A program made the position numbers and the translations under genes. A DNA stretch of 64,000 nucleotides. It comes from Candidatus Sulfotelmatobacter sp. (GTDB taxonomy: Bacteria; Vulcanimicrobiota; Vulcanimicrobiia; Vulcanimicrobiales; Vulcanimicrobiaceae). Position 1 is the first letter of the stretch; each line of letters opens with the position of its first letter. Where the stretch lies: positions 1 to 64,000 of the forward strand of contig DATJRY010000010.1 in the NCBI GenBank assembly GCA_035504415.1. The letters are read 5' to 3'. This document shows, one piece after another, positions 35,949 to 46,131 of the stretch. The notes beneath the pieces were generated by a model. The model did no database searches, had not been told where the DNA came from, and was given only the letters and a program-made list of their open reading frames with translations.

Positions 35949-37301
35949 TCAGAGCACGTGCGGGATGATGAAGAAGACGACCTCGTCCTTGGTGTGCGAG
36001 GATTGGCGGTTGCGAAAGAACGCGCCCAGGATCGGCAGGTCGCCGAGCAGCGGGAACTTGGTGATCGTCTCGGAGTCGACGTCTTGGAACAATCCGCCCA
36101 GCACGATCGTCTCGCCGTCGCGAACGCGGATCGTCGCGTCGACCTTGCGGTTCGCGATGATCGGGAAGCTGGCGTTGAAGCCGATGATCTGCGAGAACTC
36201 CGGATGCAGCTCGGCCGTGATCGTGCCGTCGCCGCCGATCGTCGGCGTCAGGCGCAGGCGCACGCCGACGTCGATCGTCTGCACGCTGGGAAAGCCGGTC
36301 TGTTGGTTGACGGTGACGACGGGATACTGCTCGCCGACCAGCAGCGAGGCTTCGTGGTTGTTCAAGGTGGCGATCTTCGGCTGCGCGAGGATCGAGGCAC
36401 GGCCGTGCTGGATCAGGGTGTCGATCTGCGCGTTGACGGCCAGCGCGCTCTTGGTCAGCGTGTACGGAATCGTGCCGAGCGCCCCGCTGCCGAAGCCGCT
36501 GCCGCCGAACTCGACGCCGACGTTGCTGTTGTCGTTGATCGGCTCGACGTCGGCGACCTTGACCTCGAACATCACCTGGCGACCGGGCGCGTCGAGCCCG
36601 GCCAGCAAGGCGCGCACGCGCGCGCGCAGCTCGAGGTTACCGCTCACGACCACGACGTTCTGGCGGTCGTCGGCGAACAGCGCGCCGTCGGGCGTCGCGC
36701 CCTTGAGGAGCTTGAGGGCGTCGCCGGCGCGCAGGTTGTGGAGCTGCACGGCTTCGGTGGCGGCGGGACTGCCGGCCCCGTCGGCCGGCGCGTCAAGCGC
36801 GTCGACCAGGCCGCGCGCGCGGGCCAGCGTCGCCGGCGCACCGGTCACCAGCACCGCGGCCGTCCGCTTGTCGGACACGACGACGGTCCCCGGCGCCAGC
36901 GCCGCCTGCAGCGCCGCGGCCACGTCCTCGGGGTGCGCGTGCGCGAGGACGAAGGTGCGCGTGCGGGTGCCGCCGGGACCCGCGTCGTCGGGAAAGCGCC
37001 GGCTCATCGAGCTCGCGTCGCCGACGATGACGACGGTGCCTTCGCGGTGCGTCTGCAGCGCGTACGAGGCCGCGAGCGCGGCCAGTGCTTCGTCGAAGGT
37101 GACGTCGGCGAGCCGCACGGTGACGCGCTGCGGCTTGACGGAACCGTCGGCGACGACGTTGCGGTTGGCGCGCGCGCCGAGCAGGCGGATGACGTCGGCC
37201 AGCTGCACGTCGCGCGCGTCGATCGTGAACCGCTCCGTCTGTGCGCTCGCGGGGAGCGTCAGCAGGGCGAGCAGCGCGAGCGCGCAGAGCGCACGTCTCA
37301 T
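35949..37301 (-). CDS. pilQ: Type IV pilus secretin PilQ
   Basis: 450 residues with signal peptide (ALCALALLALLTLPASA). An STN/TonB-short N-terminal domain (FTIDARDVQLADVIRLLGA), two N1-like repeats (TRTFVLAHAHPEDVAAAL about 120; VQLHNLRAGDALKLLKGA about 200) and the secretin core (GRASILAQPKIATLNNHEA, VGVRLRLTPTIGGDG, GETIVLGGLFQD). Shorter than proteobacterial PilQ because AMIN domains are absent. Forms the outer-membrane gate for the pilus. Its ATG overlaps the pilP stop by four bases; last gene of the operon. Confidence 0.93.
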   Translation of the reverse strand: MRRALCALALLALLTLPASAQTERFTIDARDVQLADVIRLLGARANRNVVADGSVKPQRVTVRLADVTFDEALAALAASYALQTHREGTVVIVGDASSMSRRFPDDAGPGGTRTRTFVLAHAHPEDVAAALQAALAPGTVVVSDKRTAAVLVTGAPATLARARGLVDALDAPADGAGSPAATEAVQLHNLRAGDALKLLKGATPDGALFADDRQNVVVVSGNLELRARVRALLAGLDAPGRQVMFEVKVADVEPINDNSNVGVEFGGSGFGSGALGTIPYTLTKSALAVNAQIDTLIQHGRASILAQPKIATLNNHEASLLVGEQYPVVTVNQQTGFPSVQTIDVGVRLRLTPTIGGDGTITAELHPEFSQIIGFNASFPIIANRKVDATIRVRDGETIVLGGLFQDVDSETITKFPLLGDLPILGAFFRNRQSSHTKDEVVFFIIPHVL

Positions 37302-37819
37302 TGGCGGTCGCCTCCGCCCAGGCCGGCGTCCAGCGAGAAGCGACGGCCGTCGGCGAGCCGCACGCCGGTCGCGCCGATGGCCGCCACGCTGCTGCCGTCG
37401 AGCCGATCGCCGACGGTCACGATCCGTGGACCGCGCGGGTCGTCGACGAGCGCGAACGGACGCGCTCCGGTGACGATCGCGGCCAGCCGCGGCGGAGCGA
37501 CGTCCGGCGGCGCCGCCCCGCCGGCGCCCGGATTCGGCGGCAGGACGGGCACGGCGGCGGACAGCGAGGGGACGAGCGCGAGCGCGGCGCTGGGCGCCGG
37601 TGCCGGCGTGCCCTCGGGACCCGCGAACGGGTCGCGATTCGGCCGCACCGCGAGGACTCGGGGCGGCGCGGGCGTCGTCAGCGCGAACGCCGCCGACGCG
37701 AACCGATCGCCGGCGACGCCGCCGCGCGCGACGAGCGGCGAGGTGACGAACGCTCCGGCCACGCACAGGGCGCCGCTCGCGGCCAGTGCCGTGCGGCTAC
37801 GGGGTCCGAGCGCGATCAT
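37298..37819 (-). CDS. pilP: PilP/GspC-like pilus assembly protein
   Basis: 173 residues: an N-terminal membrane helix (AALAASGALCVAGAFVTSPLV), a Pro/Ala-rich linker with the DPFA motif typical of PilP (RPNRDPFAGPEG), and a small beta-domain (ARPFALVDDPRGPRIVTVGD, VAAIGATGVRLADG) as in PilP and the GspC HR region. It would connect the PilMNO complex to the secretin. Assignment rests on motif and position; sequence similarity is otherwise low. Confidence 0.7.
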   Translation of the reverse strand: MIALGPRSRTALAASGALCVAGAFVTSPLVARGGVAGDRFASAAFALTTPAPPRVLAVRPNRDPFAGPEGTPAPAPSAALALVPSLSAAVPVLPPNPGAGGAAPPDVAPPRLAAIVTGARPFALVDDPRGPRIVTVGDRLDGSSVAAIGATGVRLADGRRFSLDAGLGGGDRQ

Positions 37820-38371
37820 CGGCCGGTAGCGTCACGCGTGGCAACGCGACGCGCAGCGAGGCGGTCAGCGACGGGTCGGAGCCGGCGGTACGCGCGCGCG
37901 TGAGCGCGACGACGTCGACGCCGGCCGGAACGCCCATGCGCGAGAGATCCGCCACGGCGCCCAGCAGATCGCCGTAGCGACCGGACAGATCGACCGTGAG
38001 CGCGAGCGGCGTCGTCGGGTGGCGCGTGCCGCGCGGCGGTTGGTCGGCGCTGACCGCGAGCACGAGCGCGTTGTGGCGCCGCGCGACCGCATCGGCGCCG
38101 CGCAGGAAGCGCGCCAGCGAGCGCGCCGCGTCCGTGCCGAGGTCCAGCCCGCGCAGGCGGCCCTGGAGCCGACGCCGCTCACCGTCGACGGCCGGCGCGC
38201 GCACCAGCTCCCGCGCCAACGCGTCGGCATGCGCGGCGGCACGCGCGTTCTCGTCGAGCTGCTCGGCGATGCGGCGTTGATCGCCGCGCACGAGGACGTA
38301 GCGAGCAGCACGACCGTCAAGGCGGCCAGCGCGAGGCCGCGTTCCAACGGGCCGGTGCGAACGGTCACCAT
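37797..38371 (-). pseudogene. pilO: PilO-like pilus assembly protein with an apparent single-base frameshift
   Basis: ATG at 38371 opens TVRTGPLERGLALAALTVVLLA, a membrane helix of the right length. The frame then needs one extra base near 38301-38302 to continue into YVLVRGDQRRIAEQLDENARA and the coiled-coil/ferredoxin-like PilO body that ends at 37797. As read, the first frame stays open through non-pilin sequence. With one base restored the product would be about 191 residues, right for PilO. May be a sequence error or a real lesion. Confidence 0.75.
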
Positions 38372-38907
38372 GGCGCCTCCAGCGCGACCGCGTAGAGGTA
38401 CTCGTTGCGTGCGGCGTCGCGACGCACGCTGACCAGCCGCGCCGCGCCATAACCGGGCACGCGACGCAGCGACGCCAACGCGTCGCCGACGTCGCGCAAC
38501 GCGGCCCCGTGCCCCTCGAGCGCGACCGCCGGCCCGTCGAGGCGCACGGTGGTCAGCCAGGCGTCGTGCGCGAGACGGTTGCCCAAGAGGGCGACGTGGC
38601 TCGCGCTGCGGGTACCGGACGTGGCCAGCTCGTCGACGTGACGCGACAACGCGCGCAGCCGGTCGACGTCGGCCGCGGCGGCGCGCATCGCGTCGAGCGC
38701 GGCGTGCGCGCTGCCCAGCCGCGCGGCCGCCCGTGCACCGGCCGCGCGCGCGGCGTGCAAGCGCAGATCGTCGACGAAGCACAGCGCCGCGACGGCGAGC
38801 AGGGCCGCGGCCAGCGACGCGAGCGGGACGCGCGTTCGTCGGTCGAGCCGACGCGCGAGCGCCGCGAACACGTCCCGGCGCGGCCGCAGATAGTTGACGC
38901 GGGTCAT
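38365..38907 (-). CDS. pilN: PilN-like pilus assembly protein
   Basis: 180 residues. Opens TRVNYLRPRRD, the short cytoplasmic NLLP-like segment by which PilN docks to PilM, then one membrane helix (VPLASLAAALLAVAALCFVDD), an Ala/Arg-rich coiled coil and a small fold ending LRRVPGYGAARLVSVRRD. Start overlaps the pilM stop by four bases. Confidence 0.82.
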   Translation of the reverse strand: MTRVNYLRPRRDVFAALARRLDRRTRVPLASLAAALLAVAALCFVDDLRLHAARAAGARAAARLGSAHAALDAMRAAAADVDRLRALSRHVDELATSGTRSASHVALLGNRLAHDAWLTTVRLDGPAVALEGHGAALRDVGDALASLRRVPGYGAARLVSVRRDAARNEYLYAVALEAPW

Positions 38908-39830
38908 GTCGCGTGCTCCCACAGCGCCAAGCCGTACGCCAGACCCCAGTCGGGCGCGGCGACGCGCACCACGTCGGCCGGCAGCGTGACGCAGGCGTCG
39001 GGTGCGAAGGTGCCCAGTCGCGTCGGGACGCCCAAGGCACGCTCGAGCGCGGCCGCCAGACCCTGCAGCCGCGCGCCGTTTCCGGTCAGCACCGCGCCGG
39101 CCGGCTCCCGCGGCGCGGCGGCGCGCAGCTCGACGAACGCGCTCGCGATCTGCTCGACCAACGCCGCGCGCGCCGACTCGCCGGCCCCGGCCATGCCGAC
39201 GCCGCGCTTGCGCAGCTCGGCGGTCGTTTCGTCGACGCCCAGGCCGGCGACGATGGCGTCGGTCAGCGCGCGCCCGCCCAGCGGAACGATCCGCGTCAGG
39301 GGCAACGCTTCGCCGCGCACGATCACGGTGCAGGCGGTCAGGCCGACGTCGACGACGGCGTCGGCGGCAAAGGCGCGCAAAAGCGCGAGGGCGCCGTCGT
39401 CGACCGCGACGGCGTGCAGCCCGGCGACCCGCGCGATCTCGACGGCGCGCTCGACCGCCGAACGACGCGCGACCGCGACGACCGTCCGCCCCGGGGTGAG
39501 CGGAACGAACCGAAGGACGCCGTCGTGCAGGGCGTGCGGTGCGAAGCGCGCGGCTTCGAAGCCGGCGGCGCGCTCGCGTTCGCGGCGGCGCAGCGGCGGC
39601 AACGCGATCTCGCGCACGTGCGAGTCGGGGGCGCGCAGCGCCAGCACGCAGCGGCGTTCGCGCGTCGAGAGCTCCGTCCGGGCGCCGGCGATCGCGGCCG
39701 ACGGATCGTCGCCGGTCGTGCGCGATGCGGCCGCCACCAAGCGCGGCGTTCCGCCCGCATCGAGCTCGGCCAGCGCCACGCACGTGCGCGCGCTGCCGAC
39801 GTCGATGCCGAGCGGCAACGAACGGGTCAT
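38904..39830 (-). CDS. pilM: PilM-like actin-fold protein
   Basis: 308 residues. Actin/FtsA-type ATPase features: PLGIDVGSARTCVALAELD (phosphate 1), AVVDVGLTACTVIVRG (phosphate 2), and AVLTGNGARLQGLAAALERALG (adenosine). PilM is a cytoplasmic ring protein that binds PilN. Shorter than the usual 350 residues. Overlaps pilD and pilN by four bases each side. Confidence 0.88.
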   Translation of the reverse strand: MTRSLPLGIDVGSARTCVALAELDAGGTPRLVAAASRTTGDDPSAAIAGARTELSTRERRCVLALRAPDSHVREIALPPLRRRERERAAGFEAARFAPHALHDGVLRFVPLTPGRTVVAVARRSAVERAVEIARVAGLHAVAVDDGALALLRAFAADAVVDVGLTACTVIVRGEALPLTRIVPLGGRALTDAIVAGLGVDETTAELRKRGVGMAGAGESARAALVEQIASAFVELRAAAPREPAGAVLTGNGARLQGLAAALERALGVPTRLGTFAPDACVTLPADVVRVAAPDWGLAYGLALWEHAT

Positions 39831-40261
39831 GCTGCCCACGGCTGCAGCACGGCACCGGCGAGCGTGCCGAGCGCGAGGAACGGTGCGAACGGCAGCGCGG
39901 AGCGTCGCGTCGCACGGCGGGCGAGAAGCAACGCGATGCCGGCCAGCGCGCCGAACGTGAACGCCGCACCCAGCGCGACGAACGCCGCCGCCGGCCCGAG
40001 CGCCGCGCCGATCGCCGCGCCTAGCTTGACGTCGCCCAACCCCAGCCCGCGCCCGCCCGTGGCGGCGTGGAGGAGCCACAGCGCGCCGCCCGCCGCCACG
40101 CTGCCGGCGAGCGCCGTCGGCAGGGTGCCGTTCAAGGCCGCCGCGGCAAGCGCGACCAGCGCGGTCGTGCCGGAGATCGGGTCGGGGATCAGCCCGGTGC
40201 GCAGATCGATCGCGGCGGCGATCAGCGTGCCTGCGATCGCCGTGGCCGGCGCGGCGGTCAT
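39827..40261 (-). CDS. pilD: Type IV prepilin peptidase (A24), short form
   Basis: 144 residues, all membrane helices. The two catalytic Asp motifs are present: AIDLRTGLIPDPIS and GLGLGDVKLGAAIG (GxGD). The N-terminal Cys-rich methyltransferase domain of PilD is missing, as in short A24 peptidases, so N-methylation of the pilin may need another enzyme. Cleaves the G|F bond of the pilin encoded upstream. Confidence 0.9.
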   Translation of the reverse strand: MTAAPATAIAGTLIAAAIDLRTGLIPDPISGTTALVALAAAALNGTLPTALAGSVAAGGALWLLHAATGGRGLGLGDVKLGAAIGAALGPAAAFVALGAAFTFGALAGIALLLARRATRRSALPFAPFLALGTLAGAVLQPWAA

Positions 40262-40794
40262 CGCGTCAGCTCGCGCAGCGCGGCGCGCGCGGGGGCGAAG
40301 TCGGGCGCGAGGGCGAGCGCGACGGCGAAGTCGTGCCGGGCCACCGTCGGCTCGTGCGCGCGCTGCGCCATCCGGCCGGCCAGCTGCGCGTAGCGCGGGT
40401 CGCGCGCGCCGAGCGCGGCGGCCGCGAAGGCGCGTTCCGCTTCGCGTATGCGGCCGAGGCGCTGAGCGGCGAAGCCGCGATCGGCCAACAAGAGCGGATC
40501 GTTCGGCACGGCGCGCAGCGCGCGCACGGCCACGGCGAGCGCGAGCGCGGCGTCGCCGCGTCCGCGGCGGACGAGCAAGAAGAAGGCCAGCCGATCGGCC
40601 GCCACGGCCGAGCGTGCGTCGATCGCCGTCGCTCGCGCATACGCGTTCACGGCGCGATCGACGTCACCGCCGCGCAGCGCGTCGTCGCCGCGCGTCACCA
40701 GCGCCGTCGCCACCTCGCCGCGGAAGAGCAGGGCCGCGCACGCCAGCGCGACGGCGGCCAGCGCGAAGCGACGAGGCCGTGCGAGCGCGCTCAC
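40258..40794 (-). CDS. Membrane-anchored TPR protein (pilus operon)
   Basis: 178 residues from GTG overlapping the previous stop (GTGA). One membrane helix (FALAAVALACAALLFRGEV), then tetratricopeptide-like helices (GDDALRGGDVDRAVNAYARATAID; LADRGFAAQRLGRIREAERAFAAAALG; HDFAVALALAPDFAPARAAL). Possibly a scaffold for the pilus complex, like PilF/Tgl pilotins, but it lacks a lipobox. Confidence 0.75.
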   Translation of the reverse strand: MSALARPRRFALAAVALACAALLFRGEVATALVTRGDDALRGGDVDRAVNAYARATAIDARSAVAADRLAFFLLVRRGRGDAALALAVAVRALRAVPNDPLLLADRGFAAQRLGRIREAERAFAAAALGARDPRYAQLAGRMAQRAHEPTVARHDFAVALALAPDFAPARAALRELTR

Positions 40795-41441
40795 GCCAGC
40801 ACTCCGTAGTACGAGGCCAAGGCCAGCATCAGCGTGCCGCCGACGGTCGCAGGCGCATGCGAGCCGGCCATTCGCGCGAAGCCGCGCGCGAGCCGCGTCC
40901 CCAGCACGCCCACGCCCACCAATGGCAGCGCGTGCCCCAGCGCGTACGCGGTCAGCACCGCCGTCGCGCTCGCGGTCGTGCCGCCGCCCAACGTCAACCC
41001 CGCGATCGCGGCCAGCACCGGCGTGCAACACGGCGAGACGACCAGCGCACCGGACGCACCGAGCAGCGCGACGCCGCCGAGGCCGACCGGTGCCGTCCGC
41101 CGTGCGGCGTGCGCCGCGCCGCCGCGCGCGAGCACCACGATGCCGGCGACGGCCAAGGCGCCGGCGAGCAGCGCGTCGGTCACGCTCGCGGCGCCGCGCA
41201 CGGACGCCAACGCGTCGACCGCGAGGCCGAGCAGCACCATCGCACCGACCAAGCCGACGACGTACGCGCAGACGAGCGCCCATGGCCGCGCGCCGGTTTG
41301 CATGACGGCCGCCAGCGCCAAGTAGCGCGGGGCGACGCAGGGCCCGGCGCTCGTCACGACGCCGGCGGCGAAGGCCAGCGGCAGCGCGCGCCCCTGCTGC
41401 GAGGCGGCCGCCTGGAGGGTGCTGACGACGAGGTCGCTCAC
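40791..41441 (-). CDS. CcdA/DsbD-like thiol-disulfide membrane transporter
   Basis: 216 residues, about six membrane helices. Contains the paired transmembrane cysteines of the family: AGVVTSAGPCVAPRYLAL near the start and VVSPCCTPVLAAIAG in the middle. Such proteins pass electrons across the inner membrane to periplasmic thioredoxin-like partners for cytochrome c maturation or disulfide reduction. It lies between the Cys-rich pilin (4-bp overlap) and the TPR gene, so it may act on pilin folding. Confidence 0.85.
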   Translation of the reverse strand: MSDLVVSTLQAAASQQGRALPLAFAAGVVTSAGPCVAPRYLALAAVMQTGARPWALVCAYVVGLVGAMVLLGLAVDALASVRGAASVTDALLAGALAVAGIVVLARGGAAHAARRTAPVGLGGVALLGASGALVVSPCCTPVLAAIAGLTLGGGTTASATAVLTAYALGHALPLVGVGVLGTRLARGFARMAGSHAPATVGGTLMLALASYYGVLA

Positions 41442-41947
41442 GGCGAGACCTGCAGCCCTTGGCCAGCGACGTAAAGGATCTTCGTCGCCGTGCAGCCCGT
41501 GCCGCAGACCGAACCGCTGGTGCCGCCGGTAAGCGGAATCTTCGCCAGCGTCGAACCGACGTGCACGCCCGGACAGGTGATCGTGTAGCCGGCGGGGCTT
41601 CCGCCCGAGGCTTGCGTCGTCGTCAGCGAGTACGTCGCGGTCGCCGTTTGCGCGGCCGGGTCCTTGGGCGTGTTGTCGAGGTACGGAACGCCGTTGGCGG
41701 TGAGCAGCGAGGGCTGCACGCTCGCGGCCGATGCGGTCGGATAGACCTGGTTGTCGGTGTAGTACAGCTCGAGCGAGGTCGCGATCGAGCGCAGGTTCGA
41801 CTCGCAGGCGGCCGTCTGCGCCTGTGCGCGCGCGTTGACGAAGTTGGGGATCAAGATTCCGGCGAGGATGGCGATGATCGCGACGACGACCATCAGCTCG
41901 ATCAGCGTGAAACCGCGTTCTCCGGAACGCGAACGGCTCGGGTGCAC
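41438..41947 (-). CDS. pilA: Type IV major or minor pilin with four cysteines
   Basis: 169 residues. Prepilin leader MHPSRSRSGERG then FTLIELMVVVAIIAILAGILIPNFVNA, with Glu5 of the mature chain. The globular part (about 45-169) has four cysteines: AACESN, TITCPGV and VCGTGCTA, enough for two disulfides. GspG/PilA-like. First gene of the minus-strand pilus operon; cleaved by the PilD encoded three genes on. Confidence 0.92.
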   Translation of the reverse strand: MHPSRSRSGERGFTLIELMVVVAIIAILAGILIPNFVNARAQAQTAACESNLRSIATSLELYYTDNQVYPTASAASVQPSLLTANGVPYLDNTPKDPAAQTATATYSLTTTQASGGSPAGYTITCPGVHVGSTLAKIPLTGGTSGSVCGTGCTATKILYVAGQGLQVSP

Positions 41948-42045: not shown

Positions 42046-42600
42046 ATGAGCGAGCTGCAAACTATCCCGCTTCGGCGGATCGACGGTTCCGAGACGCGCC
42101 TGGCCGATTTCGCCGGCGACGTCCTGTTGGTGGTCAACGTCGCCTCGCAGTGCGGTCTCACGCCGCAGTACGCGGGGCTGCAGAGCCTCTACGAGCGCTA
42201 CGGCGACCGCGGCTTCGCGGTGCTGGGCTTTCCGGCCAACGAGTTCGCCGCGCAAGAGCCGGGTTCGAACGCGGACATCGCGCAGTTCTGCGAGACGCAG
42301 TTCTCGGTGACGTTCCCGATGTTCGAGAAGATCGTCGTCAAGGGAGACGGCCGCCACCCGCTCTACGACAAACTGGTCGGCGCGCAGCCGCAGGCGCGCA
42401 CCAAACCCGACGGTCAGCTCGCCGCCCGGCTCGAATCGAAGGGACTCTTAGCCGGACGCAAGCCCGACGACGTCATGTGGAACTTCGAGAAGTTCGTGGT
42501 CGGCCGCAACGGCGAGGTCGTGGCCCGCTTCGCGCCCGACGTCGCGCCCGACGATCCGATGCTGATCGAGACGATCGAGGCGGAACTGGCCAAGGGCTGA
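42046..42600 (+). CDS. Glutathione peroxidase-family thiol peroxidase
   Basis: 184 residues. Active-site Cys in NVASQCGLTPQYAGLQ, Gln in LGFPANEFAAQEPG, Trp in MWNFEKFVVGRNGEV. Most bacterial members use thioredoxin. Reduces hydroperoxides. Its start lies about 100 bases from the divergent pilin. Confidence 0.94.
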   Translation: MSELQTIPLRRIDGSETRLADFAGDVLLVVNVASQCGLTPQYAGLQSLYERYGDRGFAVLGFPANEFAAQEPGSNADIAQFCETQFSVTFPMFEKIVVKGDGRHPLYDKLVGAQPQARTKPDGQLAARLESKGLLAGRKPDDVMWNFEKFVVGRNGEVVARFAPDVAPDDPMLIETIEAELAKG

Positions 42601-42624: not shown

Positions 42625-42650
42625 GCACGGCTCGCTTTGTCGAGCCGTGC
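42625..42650 (+). terminator. Hairpin between the peroxidase and the next gene
   Basis: Ten-base perfect stem GCACGGCTCG/CGAGCCGTGC with a 6-base loop, 25 bases after the peroxidase stop; followed by GCCGCCAGTTTG. Confidence 0.6.
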
Positions 42651-42678
42651 CGCCAGTTTGCGTCTTCAGGGGGTGGGC

Positions 42679-44223
42679 ATGCAACAGGTGCGAACGGCCG
42701 CATTGGCATTCGTCGCGATCACCGTGCTGATCGTGAGCGGCTCGCAGTTCGGGACGTCGGTGGGAGCCGCCGCGCCGAGCGCGAGCTTCCGCCCCGGCGA
42801 GGGCTCCAAACCGTCCTCGTGCGACAAGAAGTACACCGGCGTCATCGTGCCCGTCATTCTCCCCTTGCAGCTCGGTGGCAAGGTGGACGGCCAGTTCGAG
42901 GCCAGCTGCAACGCGTATCAAGAGTTCACCTACCTCAACTGGCGTAGCGCCGGTCACGGCATCCCCGACCCCACCGTCAAGGGCAGCGCCTTCGGCGCAC
43001 CGGTCGACGGCGCGCACACCTACGCGACGGTGTGGGAGACGTACACCAATCCGGACGTCCTGTTCGCGACGCCGACCGGCCTGCGAAACGTGAAGTTGAG
43101 CTCGAACGGGCTGCGGACGCTCTCCGCGATTTCGAAGGGCGACGGCGACGACGTGCATTTCAGCGGCTTCCAGCAAGCCGGCAGCTTCGGCTGGCTGACG
43201 ACGCGCGGCGGCGATCTGACGTTCTACGAAGAGCGGATCGACAACGACGAGGCGCAGTACATCACCAGCAACGGGCTCACCTCGGCGGCCAAGCAGCGCA
43301 CCTGCGCGCAGAGCAAGTACGGCTTGAATCTGCCGGCCGGCGCGTCGGTCGATCCGGCCAAGCCCTGGACCGATCACAGCTGCACCGGCGCCGCGGTCAC
43401 GTACGGCCAAAACATCGGCGCGATCGAGCTCAAGGCGGCATGGATCGAGCTGCACGATCCCGCGCTGTACCGGAAGTACTTGATCTCGCGCGCGAACCTG
43501 CTCTACCCGGACGGGACGGAGCGCAAGAACGTCGTGATCGGTTTGGTCGGGCTGCACATCATTCACAAGTCGCCGACCACCCAGCAGTTCTTGTGGGCCA
43601 CCTTCGAGCACGTCGACAACGTGCCGGACGCGACGCCGTACCCCGAGGTTCCCTCGACCGAGGCGCCCGCGACGCCGACGGCAACGCCGCAGTGGACGTA
43701 CTACAACCCGAACTGCGCCGGCCCGTTCTGCGCGGTCAACAAGCTGCCTTCACCGTGTCCGGCGCCGCCGATTCCCGGCTGCCAAGGGTATCACGTGCCG
43801 ACCCGTACGATGCGCGTCGTTCCACGTTCGTCGTTCGCCGAGGCCGAGAACACAACGTTCGACGAAGCGCTGACGACTGCCGGCGCGGTGAATTCGGTGT
43901 TCCGGTACTATCGGCTGGTCGACGTGCAGTGGCCGACGCAAGGCACGCTCGTCAACCCGCCGGGAGCACCGATCCCGCTCAGCGACGGCGTGGCGCTGCC
44001 GCGCTGGATCGTGGCGAACGCGACCATGGAGACCTACTTCCAGAACGTCTTGGCGTGCCAAAGCTGCCACACCGGCGCCGCGGTCTCCGAAGGCCGGCCG
44101 GGCGGGCGCGTGCACATCAACCTGGTCAACCCGGTCCTGCTGCGAAAACTCATGCACGCGAAATCGGGTGAGCCGACGGAATACGCGTCGGACTACTCGT
44201 TCATCTTCGGCAAGGCGAAGTAG
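42679..44223 (+). CDS. Exported protein with a single C-terminal CxxCH heme-binding motif
   Basis: 514 residues. Signal peptide (TAALAFVAITVLIVSGSQ). The body is unlike any family I recognise; it carries CDKKYTGVIVP, then Cys pairs, and a CAGPFCAVNKLPSPCPAPP segment about residue 350. Near the C-terminus (about 465) NVLACQSCHTGAAV is a c-type heme site, so it is probably a periplasmic cytochrome-like protein. A distal Met ligand is not obvious. A CcdA-like gene is 1.2 kb away. Function unknown. Confidence 0.7.
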   Translation: MQQVRTAALAFVAITVLIVSGSQFGTSVGAAAPSASFRPGEGSKPSSCDKKYTGVIVPVILPLQLGGKVDGQFEASCNAYQEFTYLNWRSAGHGIPDPTVKGSAFGAPVDGAHTYATVWETYTNPDVLFATPTGLRNVKLSSNGLRTLSAISKGDGDDVHFSGFQQAGSFGWLTTRGGDLTFYEERIDNDEAQYITSNGLTSAAKQRTCAQSKYGLNLPAGASVDPAKPWTDHSCTGAAVTYGQNIGAIELKAAWIELHDPALYRKYLISRANLLYPDGTERKNVVIGLVGLHIIHKSPTTQQFLWATFEHVDNVPDATPYPEVPSTEAPATPTATPQWTYYNPNCAGPFCAVNKLPSPCPAPPIPGCQGYHVPTRTMRVVPRSSFAEAENTTFDEALTTAGAVNSVFRYYRLVDVQWPTQGTLVNPPGAPIPLSDGVALPRWIVANATMETYFQNVLACQSCHTGAAVSEGRPGGRVHINLVNPVLLRKLMHAKSGEPTEYASDYSFIFGKAK

Positions 44224-44287: not shown

Positions 44288-44500
44288 ATGAAGAAGCAGG
44301 GCCCGCGGGCCGAGCTCAAGCTCGGCGATCACGTTCGCATCCCGGCCGACGACGTGGTCGGCACCGTCACCGACGTGCACCCGCACGAAGTGACCGTTAA
44401 GGTGACCATCGACGGTGAGACGGCGCACCGCAAGTACGCGTACGAGTCCGTCGAGCGCGTGGGCACGCTCGACGAAGTCTCGCACTACGTGGATCACTAG
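44288..44500 (+). CDS. Small KOW-like protein of unknown function
   Basis: 70 residues. LKLGDHVRIPADDVVGTVTDVHPHEVTVKV reads as a small SH3/KOW-type barrel. No named family recognised. Its TAG stop shares a CTAG palindrome with the stop of the convergent lipoprotein gene. Confidence 0.65.
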   Translation: MKKQGPRAELKLGDHVRIPADDVVGTVTDVHPHEVTVKVTIDGETAHRKYAYESVERVGTLDEVSHYVDH

Positions 44501-46131
44501 CTGCCGGAATACGGCGTGCAGGTCGCGAGCACGCTCTGGAACGTGCTCGAGAGGGTCGAGAGGACGGCGCTGTCGGTGACGTCCATGCCCCAGTCGATCT
44601 GATACGCCGCGCCGGCGGTCGCGTTCGACGAGCCGAACCAGCCCGTGCCCGAGCCGATCAGGGTCATCTTTTCGGCGCCCGAGGCGGGATTGAGCTCGAC
44701 GTCGGCGCCGGCGCTCTGCAGCTGGCTCAAGACCGTCTCCTCGCCCGAGTCGAGGTCGCTCTTGAGCACGATGACGTGGACGCTCTGGCCGCCCTGCGCG
44801 GCGGCCAGCAGCGCGCTCGCGACGTTGCCGGGCCCGAACGACTCGGTCATGAAGTCGACCGTTCCGCTGGTGTGCGCCTGGATGTAAGCGGTCTCCATCG
44901 ACAGCGAGTCCTGCTTGATCGTGTCGAGGCGCGTCCCGTCACCGGGATTCAGCGCCAGCGCGTTGCCGATCGTCGTCAGGTCGTTCGCGTTCGTGTCGCG
45001 CAGAATGACGTCGCCGCTGTCCCAGTTGCGGCCGTCGAGGAAGCCGACGCCATCGACGATCGCGAGCTTGGCGTGCAGCGGCTCGGGATTCGGTGACTGC
45101 GTGCCCGCGTCCCAAACGACGCTGCCGCCGGCCGCCTCGAGCGTCGCCGCGGACTGCTCGTCGGTGCTGTAGACACCGATGCTCTGCGCGTACGAATCGG
45201 ACGGGAGATCGACGGTCACGCTCGCGCCGGCCTTGGCCGCCGCCACGAGCGCGTTGAGCAGACCGCTGCTCGGCTCGAGGGTGTACGTGCTCAACTGGAC
45301 TTTCTTGCCGGCTTGAATCGTCGAGAGGACCGTCGCCTGGCTCACCACGGTCAGACCGGAGCCCGAGCTCGGCGTCGGGCTGGGTGTGGGCGTCGGCGTC
45401 GGCGTGGTGGTGGGCTTCGGCGTCGCCGTCGGCTTGGGCGTGGCGGTCGGCGTCGCGGTCGTCGTCGGTATCGGCGTCGGGGTCGCGGTCGGGCCCGCGG
45501 TGGGCGTCGCGGTCGGTGCGCTCGTCGACGTGCCGGTGAGGCTGACGTCGTCGACGTACTGCACGATGTGGTAGCTGCCGTCGGGGTCGCCTTTGACGCC
45601 GAAGTAGATCTCGACCGTCTGGCCGGCGTACGCGCTCAGGTCGTACGAGCGCTGCACCCAACCGCTGGTGGTGTTGGCTTCGGAGTAGATGGTGCTCAGG
45701 ATCGTGCCGCTCGTGTTGCGGACGTCGGCTTCCTGGTCGGCGTACTTCGTCGAGGTCTCGTTGGTCGATTCTTCGATCCAGAACGTCAGCGTCGCGCCGG
45801 CGGGCACGGTGACGGTCTGGTAGAGACCCGACGTGCCGTTGGGTTCGGTCGTCGTGTCACCCATCTTCGCGGCGTAGGAGCCGCTGTGCACGACGCTGGT
45901 CTGGATGGAGGCACTCACCGTACCGCCCTGTTTCCAGTACGTGTACGAGTCGGACTCGAAGCCGGGGTCTTGCATGACGTTCGTCGCGGCTTGCGCGACG
46001 GCGCTCGCGGTGCGCGAGCCGCCGGTCAGGTGCTGCTCGTTGGTGGGGACCGTGCCGTCGCGGCCACCGGAGCACGCGGCGATCGTGGCGACGAGCAAGA
46101 CGCTCGCGCAAATCATCGTCGGTCGTTGCAA
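44497..46131 (-). CDS. Lipoprotein with Thr-Pro linker and phospholipase D-like domain
   Basis: 544 residues. Lipobox TIAACS (Cys 20). Residues about 50-195 look like a carbohydrate-binding or jelly-roll module (NVMQDPGFESDSYTYW, VQYVDDVSLTG). Then about 65 residues of Thr/Pro repeats (TPTATPKPTATPKP), and from about 260 a PLD-like fold with one HKD-type motif, PLHAKLAIVDGVGFLDGRNWD, plus a second half ending GWFGSSNATAGAAYQIDWG where His and Lys are missing. Ends at the CTAG shared with the opposite gene. Surface enzyme or binder; substrate unknown. Confidence 0.75.
   Translation of the reverse strand: MQRPTMICASVLLVATIAACSGGRDGTVPTNEQHLTGGSRTASAVAQAATNVMQDPGFESDSYTYWKQGGTVSASIQTSVVHSGSYAAKMGDTTTEPNGTSGLYQTVTVPAGATLTFWIEESTNETSTKYADQEADVRNTSGTILSTIYSEANTTSGWVQRSYDLSAYAGQTVEIYFGVKGDPDGSYHIVQYVDDVSLTGTSTSAPTATPTAGPTATPTPIPTTTATPTATPKPTATPKPTTTPTPTPTPSPTPSSGSGLTVVSQATVLSTIQAGKKVQLSTYTLEPSSGLLNALVAAAKAGASVTVDLPSDSYAQSIGVYSTDEQSAATLEAAGGSVVWDAGTQSPNPEPLHAKLAIVDGVGFLDGRNWDSGDVILRDTNANDLTTIGNALALNPGDGTRLDTIKQDSLSMETAYIQAHTSGTVDFMTESFGPGNVASALLAAAQGGQSVHVIVLKSDLDSGEETVLSQLQSAGADVELNPASGAEKMTLIGSGTGWFGSSNATAGAAYQIDWGMDVTDSAVLSTLSSTFQSVLATCTPYSGS

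Follow-up and report, generated by a model that had tools for sequence, protein, structure and literature searches.

A CcdA-like protein and a TPR protein encoded directly behind a cysteine-containing pilin in a type IVa pilus operon of Vulcanimicrobiota

Why should a pilus operon carry, directly behind its pilin gene, a gene for a membrane protein of the CcdA family? Pilin disulfides need general oxidising enzymes, and every CcdA/DsbD protein characterised so far is, to our knowledge, a carrier of reductant. The question is raised by a locus on the minus strand (41947-35949) of the window, that is, the whole stretch of 64,000 nucleotides that was analysed, at the beginning of a 306-kb contig (DATJRY010000010.1, here C10) in a 4.17-Mb draft genome (GCA_035504415.1). 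Nine overlapping genes, for a pilin, a CcdA-like protein, a TPR protein, a short PilD, PilM, PilN, PilO, PilP and a secretin, follow one another there. A first-pass annotation, made from the letters of the window, had listed these nine genes with mostly 4-bp overlaps, and all of them were found, with overlaps of 4 bp at six of the eight junctions, 7 bp at PilN/PilO and 23 bp at PilO/PilP; the exception to their intactness was pilO, which is frameshifted. Its description of a four-cysteine pilin (C48, C125, C148 and C152) whose gene shares 4 bp with that of a CcdA-like protein carrying membrane cysteines was also borne out, the shared bases being the pilin stop and the GTG start of ccdA.

By its gene content, the locus is a type IVa pilus assembly operon with a predicted two-gene CcdA-TPR membrane thiol module directly behind the pilin. 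All parts are of known families; new are the way they are combined, how tightly the arrangement is conserved and the tracking of the cysteines. The literature search found no link between CcdA/DsbD proteins and a type IV pilus operon, nor any reductant carrier whose gene is translationally coupled to a pilin gene in such an operon and which tracks one cysteine of that pilin. The pilin and the two genes of the module are as follows.

41438-41947, minus strand: pilin of the major type, 169 aa, with a class III signal (..ERGFTLIELM), T2SSG-like, with C48, C125, C148 and C152
40791-41441, minus strand: CcdA/DsbD-TM family membrane protein, 216 aa, with the redox cysteines C35 and C138 (C139 adjacent)
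40258-40794, minus strand: TPR protein with an N-terminal membrane anchor (TPR_2 36.9 bits)

Conservation of the operon among relatives

The relatives were 'Candidatus Eremiobacterota' genomes (phylum now Vulcanimicrobiota) from palsa, bog and other samples. The CcdA protein, used as the query, matched 47 of the 103 genomes of the order, and more were added by a profile searched over 149 genomes of the phylum. By reading of the neighbourhoods, the order pilin-ccdA-TPR-pilD-pilM-N-O-P-Q was found in 24 genera of the family. At all 53 loci measured, pilin and ccdA were 9 bp or less apart, with an overlap of exactly 4 bp at 26 of them, and the TPR gene was always located directly after ccdA.

Retention of ccdA in the operon of close relatives had been set by the first-pass annotation as one of two points on which its proposal depended. 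It was retained, always beside the pilin, in the 24 genera, but seven further genera of the family contributed eight operons of the order pilin-pilD-pilM-N-O-P-Q with neither ccdA nor the TPR gene, the latter being lost together with the former. A second copy of the pilin-linked CcdA type was not found in these eight genomes, which gave either generic CcdA matches, at 49-58 bits, or no match. Many other members of the family (e.g. genus g5) were without both the pilin of the window type and the pilin-linked CcdA.

Genome G098 was set aside as a case of a pilin without CcdA, its contig stopping about 45 bases past the pilin. A second, diverged pilin-CcdA-TPR copy, the pilin of which has C48 and C125, was observed at locus L067 (G063:C230), where the contig end cuts the locus.

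Cysteines of the CcdA-like protein and of the pilin

The AlphaFold2 (AF2) model of the CcdA-like protein had a mean predicted local distance difference test score (pLDDT) of 87.6. A PDB fold search with this model gave no significant match, CcdA structures not being among the matches listed, so family membership rests on sequence profiles. The window protein was matched by DsbD_TM (PF02683) with 25.1 bits, just below the cut-off of 27.1, the orthologue of Vulcanimicrobium alpinum passed with 33.8 bits, and 33 of the 42 family members had a match at E<=0.01. The profile of the family, built from 42 relatives, matched in the PDB the CcdA of Thermus thermophilus (5vkv) with an E of 4.8e-14 and a second CcdA (2n4x) with an E of 6.3e-4. 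The two redox cysteines of the family, in transmembrane segments 1 and 4 (TM1 and TM4), are present: C35 (in GPCxAPR) and C138 (followed by C139, in SPCCTP) were aligned to the two PC cysteines of 5vkv. C35, C138 and C139 were kept in 53 of the 54 pilin-linked CcdAs from the 24 genera (motifs PC..P in TM1 and PCC.P in TM4), the mean column identity of these proteins being 41%.

The profile match to 5vkv, the two aligned cysteine motifs of the PCxxP type and the size of a membrane protein of about 220 aa are shared with CcdA, DsbD-TM and ScsB. The protein differs from them in its PCxAPR and PCCTP signatures, in an invariant Arg39 and a conserved His170, in being partnered with a TPR gene instead of a thioredoxin-fold gene, and in its location in a pilus operon. 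Weak CcdA matches in f2 and other families (L074 and L136-L139) were rejected as other DsbD-like proteins, several of which stand beside thioredoxin-like genes. As for the partner, an N-terminal hydrophobic segment was found in 64 of 69 TPR homologues, and the TPR domain is predicted to be periplasmic from the positive-inside pattern of this anchor.

The pilin was matched by N_methyl with 37.1 bits (cut-off 21.2) and by T2SSG with 22.7 bits, both exceeding the cut-off, and has the class III signal (GFxxxE) and the hydrophobic helix of type IVa pilins; no second prepilin-like open reading frame was found by a motif scan of the window. Its AF2 model (pLDDT 84.6) is of the lollipop type, the best PDB match being a weak one to T. 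thermophilus PilA4 (6xxd, E 3.4e-3), and places C48 within the long helix 15-66 and C125 directly after the strand 120-124.

Conservation of the pilin cysteines was the second point set by the first-pass annotation, which had treated the four alike, and this held for one pair only. C48 and C125 were present in all 54 pilins adjacent to CcdA, whereas C148 and C152 were present in 12-13 of the 54, mainly in the window's own genus, and also occurred where CcdA was absent: the pilins of the eight CcdA-less operons of the family were without C48 and C125, and seven of them retained the C-terminal pair C148/C152. It is C48/C125, and not C148/C152, that track CcdA. C48 was kept and C125 was replaced by Asp or a similar residue both in f2, represented by three genomes in which the pilin has no adjacent CcdA, and in fifteen pilins of f3, a sister order of the class. 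Within the class, C125 was present in 54/54 pilins with an adjacent CcdA vs 0/26 without.

Among the products of the operon, the pilin was the sole one with conserved cysteines outside the membrane anchors. PilN, PilO, PilP and PilQ had zero cysteines outside the anchor in 45-49 of 48-50 loci, and one column of the TPR protein had a cysteine in 20/54. The pilin would therefore be the natural client of the CcdA.

Elsewhere in the phylum, pilins from other classes (L172-L183) have in common C48, a cysteine in a PTC motif and a motif of the CxGxxH type, and the histidine of the latter was retained in many pilins that had lost C125.

A candidate redox step on the pilin and its alternatives

That ccdA is always located behind the pilin gene, and only with the cysteine pair, suggests that the cells control the redox state of their pilus subunit. 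The reading preferred here, tentatively and with slightly less than even confidence, is that the CcdA-like carrier sets the redox state of pilin C48 and C125 at the outer face of the inner membrane. We infer a route in which electrons would be taken by the CcdA-like protein from cytoplasmic thioredoxin to that outer face, and would there govern the redox state of the pair. C48, mature residue 36, lies in the long N-terminal helix of the pilin, and C125 in its globular head. The two cysteines would be held reduced, or wrong disulfides would be undone, during the wait of the pilin in the membrane, and C48 and C125 would be either natively bonded to each other or both free when the PilMNOPQ/PilBTC machine takes up the subunit. 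Holding or presenting the pilin may be the task of the TPR protein, and an exported TlpA-like carrier could sit between CcdA and pilin. Because described CcdAs carry reductant, 'disulfide folding' would mean here the reduction or reshuffling of bonds and not their formation. As a mechanism, the pilin thiols as the client of the CcdA are plausible and unproven.

Separate precedents exist for the parts of such a route. In Streptococcus pneumoniae, CcdA1/2 bring electrons from cytoplasmic thioredoxin to thioredoxin-like proteins of the surface (PMC3914529). In Bacillus subtilis ComGC, Cys36 of helix alpha-1 is close enough to the head for a bond, and BdbDC is needed (PMC7212644); C48 of the window pilin is likewise mature residue 36, by counting of residues and not by alignment of the two sequences. 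An alpha-1 cysteine bonded to the head in dependence on thiol oxidoreductases is the likeness (PMC7212644). The second cysteine, however, is at another head position than in the window pilin, and the Bacillus oxidising pair BdbD/BdbC is encoded outside the pilin operon, whereas a reductant-type carrier is encoded within the operon here. In Neisseria, the disulfide enzymes DsbA1/DsbA2 act on the type IV pilus proteins PilE and PilQ (PMC3526765), but they are oxidases with general substrates, encoded elsewhere, and PilQ of the present operon is without periplasmic cysteines. A membrane electron carrier with a TPR-type substrate binder is also known from cytochrome c maturation, as CcdA with CcmI/CcmH, and the TPR protein has a weak similarity, under the cut-off, to TPR_CcmH_CycH; CcmG/ResA or haem lyase genes are not present at the locus, however, and the client would be a pilin.

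In a stronger form, which we consider unlikely, the CcdA-TPR pair would pass electrons directly to the pilin cysteines at the membrane surface with no thioredoxin-fold carrier, and pilus assembly would then depend on cytoplasmic redox; if so, the phototactic surface motility of Vulcanimicrobium would also depend on the redox state of the cytoplasm. If the preferred reading, control of C48 and C125 by the CcdA-like carrier, is confirmed, the cell would be shown to spend cytoplasmic reductant on a pilus subunit, and pilus building would be linked, in a phototrophic phylum, to the redox state, the bacteria concerned being Vulcanimicrobiota of soil and permafrost.

Several results weigh against this reading. 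The eight CcdA-less operons form one clade in the PilQ tree (98/96), and the pattern of C125 is explicable by 2-3 changes on the pilin tree; since so few changes suffice, the association of C125 with CcdA is suggestive and not a statistical proof. The thioredoxin-like partner looked for was not found in the operon, but several exported TlpA-like proteins with CxxC, as candidates, are encoded elsewhere in the genome. Seven pilins from outside the class carry a third cysteine ('PTC') in addition to C48 and C125, and none of them has a CcdA within 1.5 kb. The position of this third cysteine is Asp (KDP, VDP) in most pilins of the class, and on our reading the usual partner of C125 would have disappeared here, C48 and C125 staying as the conserved cysteines where CcdA is present. 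In G057 (L076), the sole exception among the pilin-linked CcdAs, all three redox cysteines of the CcdA are absent and the pilin retains C48 and C125. At 16 loci of f3 (L120-L135) there is a homologous CcdA-TPR pair with no pilin alongside and with its cysteines replaced (SPSSVPR/APDATP). The cysteine loss in G057 and the cysteine-less pair of f3 are the best evidence that the CcdA-TPR pair may have some role without redox chemistry. The dedicated redox step proposed by the first-pass annotation is accordingly left with the co-occurrence and the lack of other conserved periplasmic cysteines in the operon on its side, and with G057 and the few-event phylogeny on the other. As a separate observation, the f3 pair is divergent from a gene for a monothiol glutaredoxin (CGFT) at each of the three loci that were read (L120, L124 and L128).

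The same cases bear on a fairly unlikely alternative, namely that the CcdA-TPR pair is a cysteine-independent scaffold or chaperone of the inner membrane, which stabilises the pilin or hands it over, the redox cysteines being ancestral and sometimes used. It would account for the operon of G057, for the Ser and Asp residues in place of the cysteines in the f3 pair, and for a TPR gene that always follows ccdA and is lost along with it; but neutral ancestry would not preserve the redox cysteines in 53 of 54 pilin-linked CcdAs across 24 genera, and the f3 pair, not being beside pilins, may do a different job. On another view, the reductant carried by the CcdA would go to an envelope pathway of general use (TlpA-like proteins, methionine sulfoxide repair or cytochrome c), and ccdA would be located in the operon for co-expression only. 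CcdAs act so elsewhere (PMC3914529), the exported TlpA-like proteins exist, and a glutathione peroxidase gene (42046-42600, plus strand) is divergent from the pilin. This is nevertheless judged unlikely: an additional, ordinary CcdA for general duties is encoded in most genomes, indeed in almost every one, the pilin-linked type is absent from members of the family without this pilin type and tracks C125 within the class, and the peroxidase gene is not conserved, no match for it or for the neighbouring methyltransferase genes being found adjoining the operon in relatives.

Finally, the CcdA-like protein might run in the oxidising direction and form the pilin disulfides as a substitute for DsbB or VKOR, at least in the window's genus (g1: G000 and G091-G100). 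VKOR matches were obtained in 70/103 genomes of the order and in 0/11 of this genus, despite the four-cysteine pilins there; DsbB had no match in any genome of the order; and a DsbA-like partner (Thioredoxin_4) was rejected for the genus, the sole such protein that was read being without a signal peptide. Since all characterised CcdA/DsbD proteins carry reductant and VKOR is present in most of the other genera that have this operon, this direction is regarded as very improbable.

Pilus machinery and neighbouring genes

The remaining genes of the operon are as follows.

39827-40261, minus strand: short prepilin peptidase, PilD without the methylase domain, 144 aa (Peptidase_A24 44.9 bits, exceeding the Pfam cut-off)
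38904-39830, minus strand: PilM, actin-like (PilM_2 48.1 bits, exceeding the Pfam cut-off)
38365-38907, minus strand: PilN (PilN 19.4 bits, under the cut-off; operon position conserved)
37797-38371, minus strand: PilO by position (no Pfam match; homologous to the in-frame PilO of nine relatives)
37298-37819, minus strand: PilP by position (no Pfam match; weak GspC match, E 0.008; position conserved)
35949-37301, minus strand: secretin PilQ, 450 aa (Secretin 151 bits, Secretin_N 83.4 bits, exceeding the Pfam cut-off)

In the window, the reading frame of pilO breaks near 38,300 (38290-38371), with the ATG and the membrane anchor in one frame and the remainder in another, while the gene of nine relatives is in frame; a sequencing or assembly error in this stretch of 75% GC and a real mutation are considered equally likely.

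That the motor genes are missing, as had been noted at first pass, is true of the locus only. PilB and PilT were found at C10:232.5-234.7 kb and PilC at 235-236 kb (C10:232-236 kb as a whole), on the same contig and 190 kb from the operon. PilT, at C10:233.7 kb, passed the curated cut-off (TIGR01420, 368.7 bits vs 319.1). PilB (T2SSE, 369 bits) and PilC (T2SSF, 114.5/82.5 bits) exceeded the Pfam cut-offs; their equivalog cut-offs were not reached, the GspE/GspF models giving similar scores. The secretin was scored alike by the PilQ model (187.5) and the GspD model (192.6), under the cut-offs of both. A type II secretion system has no retraction ATPase and has GspL/GspM in place of PilM/PilN; here PilT is present and PilM is a separate, actin-like protein. 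Because PilT passes its curated cut-off and PilM is present, a pilus is favoured over type II secretion.

All core parts, with PilN assigned from a weak match and PilO and PilP by position, and the canonical pilMNOPQ order are shared with type IVa systems, and V. alpinum WC8-2, a cultured congener, forms type IV pili and glides phototactically towards light (PMC9758169). Since a cultured species with the same operon (G091 of the window's genus, locus L043) and visible pili exists, the idea of a redox step on the pilin is directly testable. In contrast to these systems, pilin-ccdA-TPR-pilD precede pilM in one overlapping operon here, the CcdA-TPR pair is included, and the bifunctional PilD peptidase/methylase is replaced by the peptidase domain alone. 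The absence of the methylase domain had been correctly noted at first pass, and such peptidases are a known kind, as in T4cP/TadV (PMC10191384). GxGD was found in 49 of 52 PilD homologues and CxxC in only 3. The pilin may be unmethylated, since the operon's short PilD, without the methylase domain, is the only prepilin peptidase (PF01478) found in the genome.

In other genera, a gap of 150-200 bp appears between TPR and PilD, and a small gene hidden in it was considered and rejected; the gap is an in-frame N-terminal extension of PilD of about 55 residues, in nearly all of which the CxxC methylase motif is absent.

Beyond the operon, an exported 528-aa protein with one CxxCH motif (haem c type) and no Pfam match is predicted at 42637-44223 on the plus strand, and the gene at 44497-46131 on the minus strand encodes a phospholipase D-like protein that is exported and has a linker rich in Thr and Pro.

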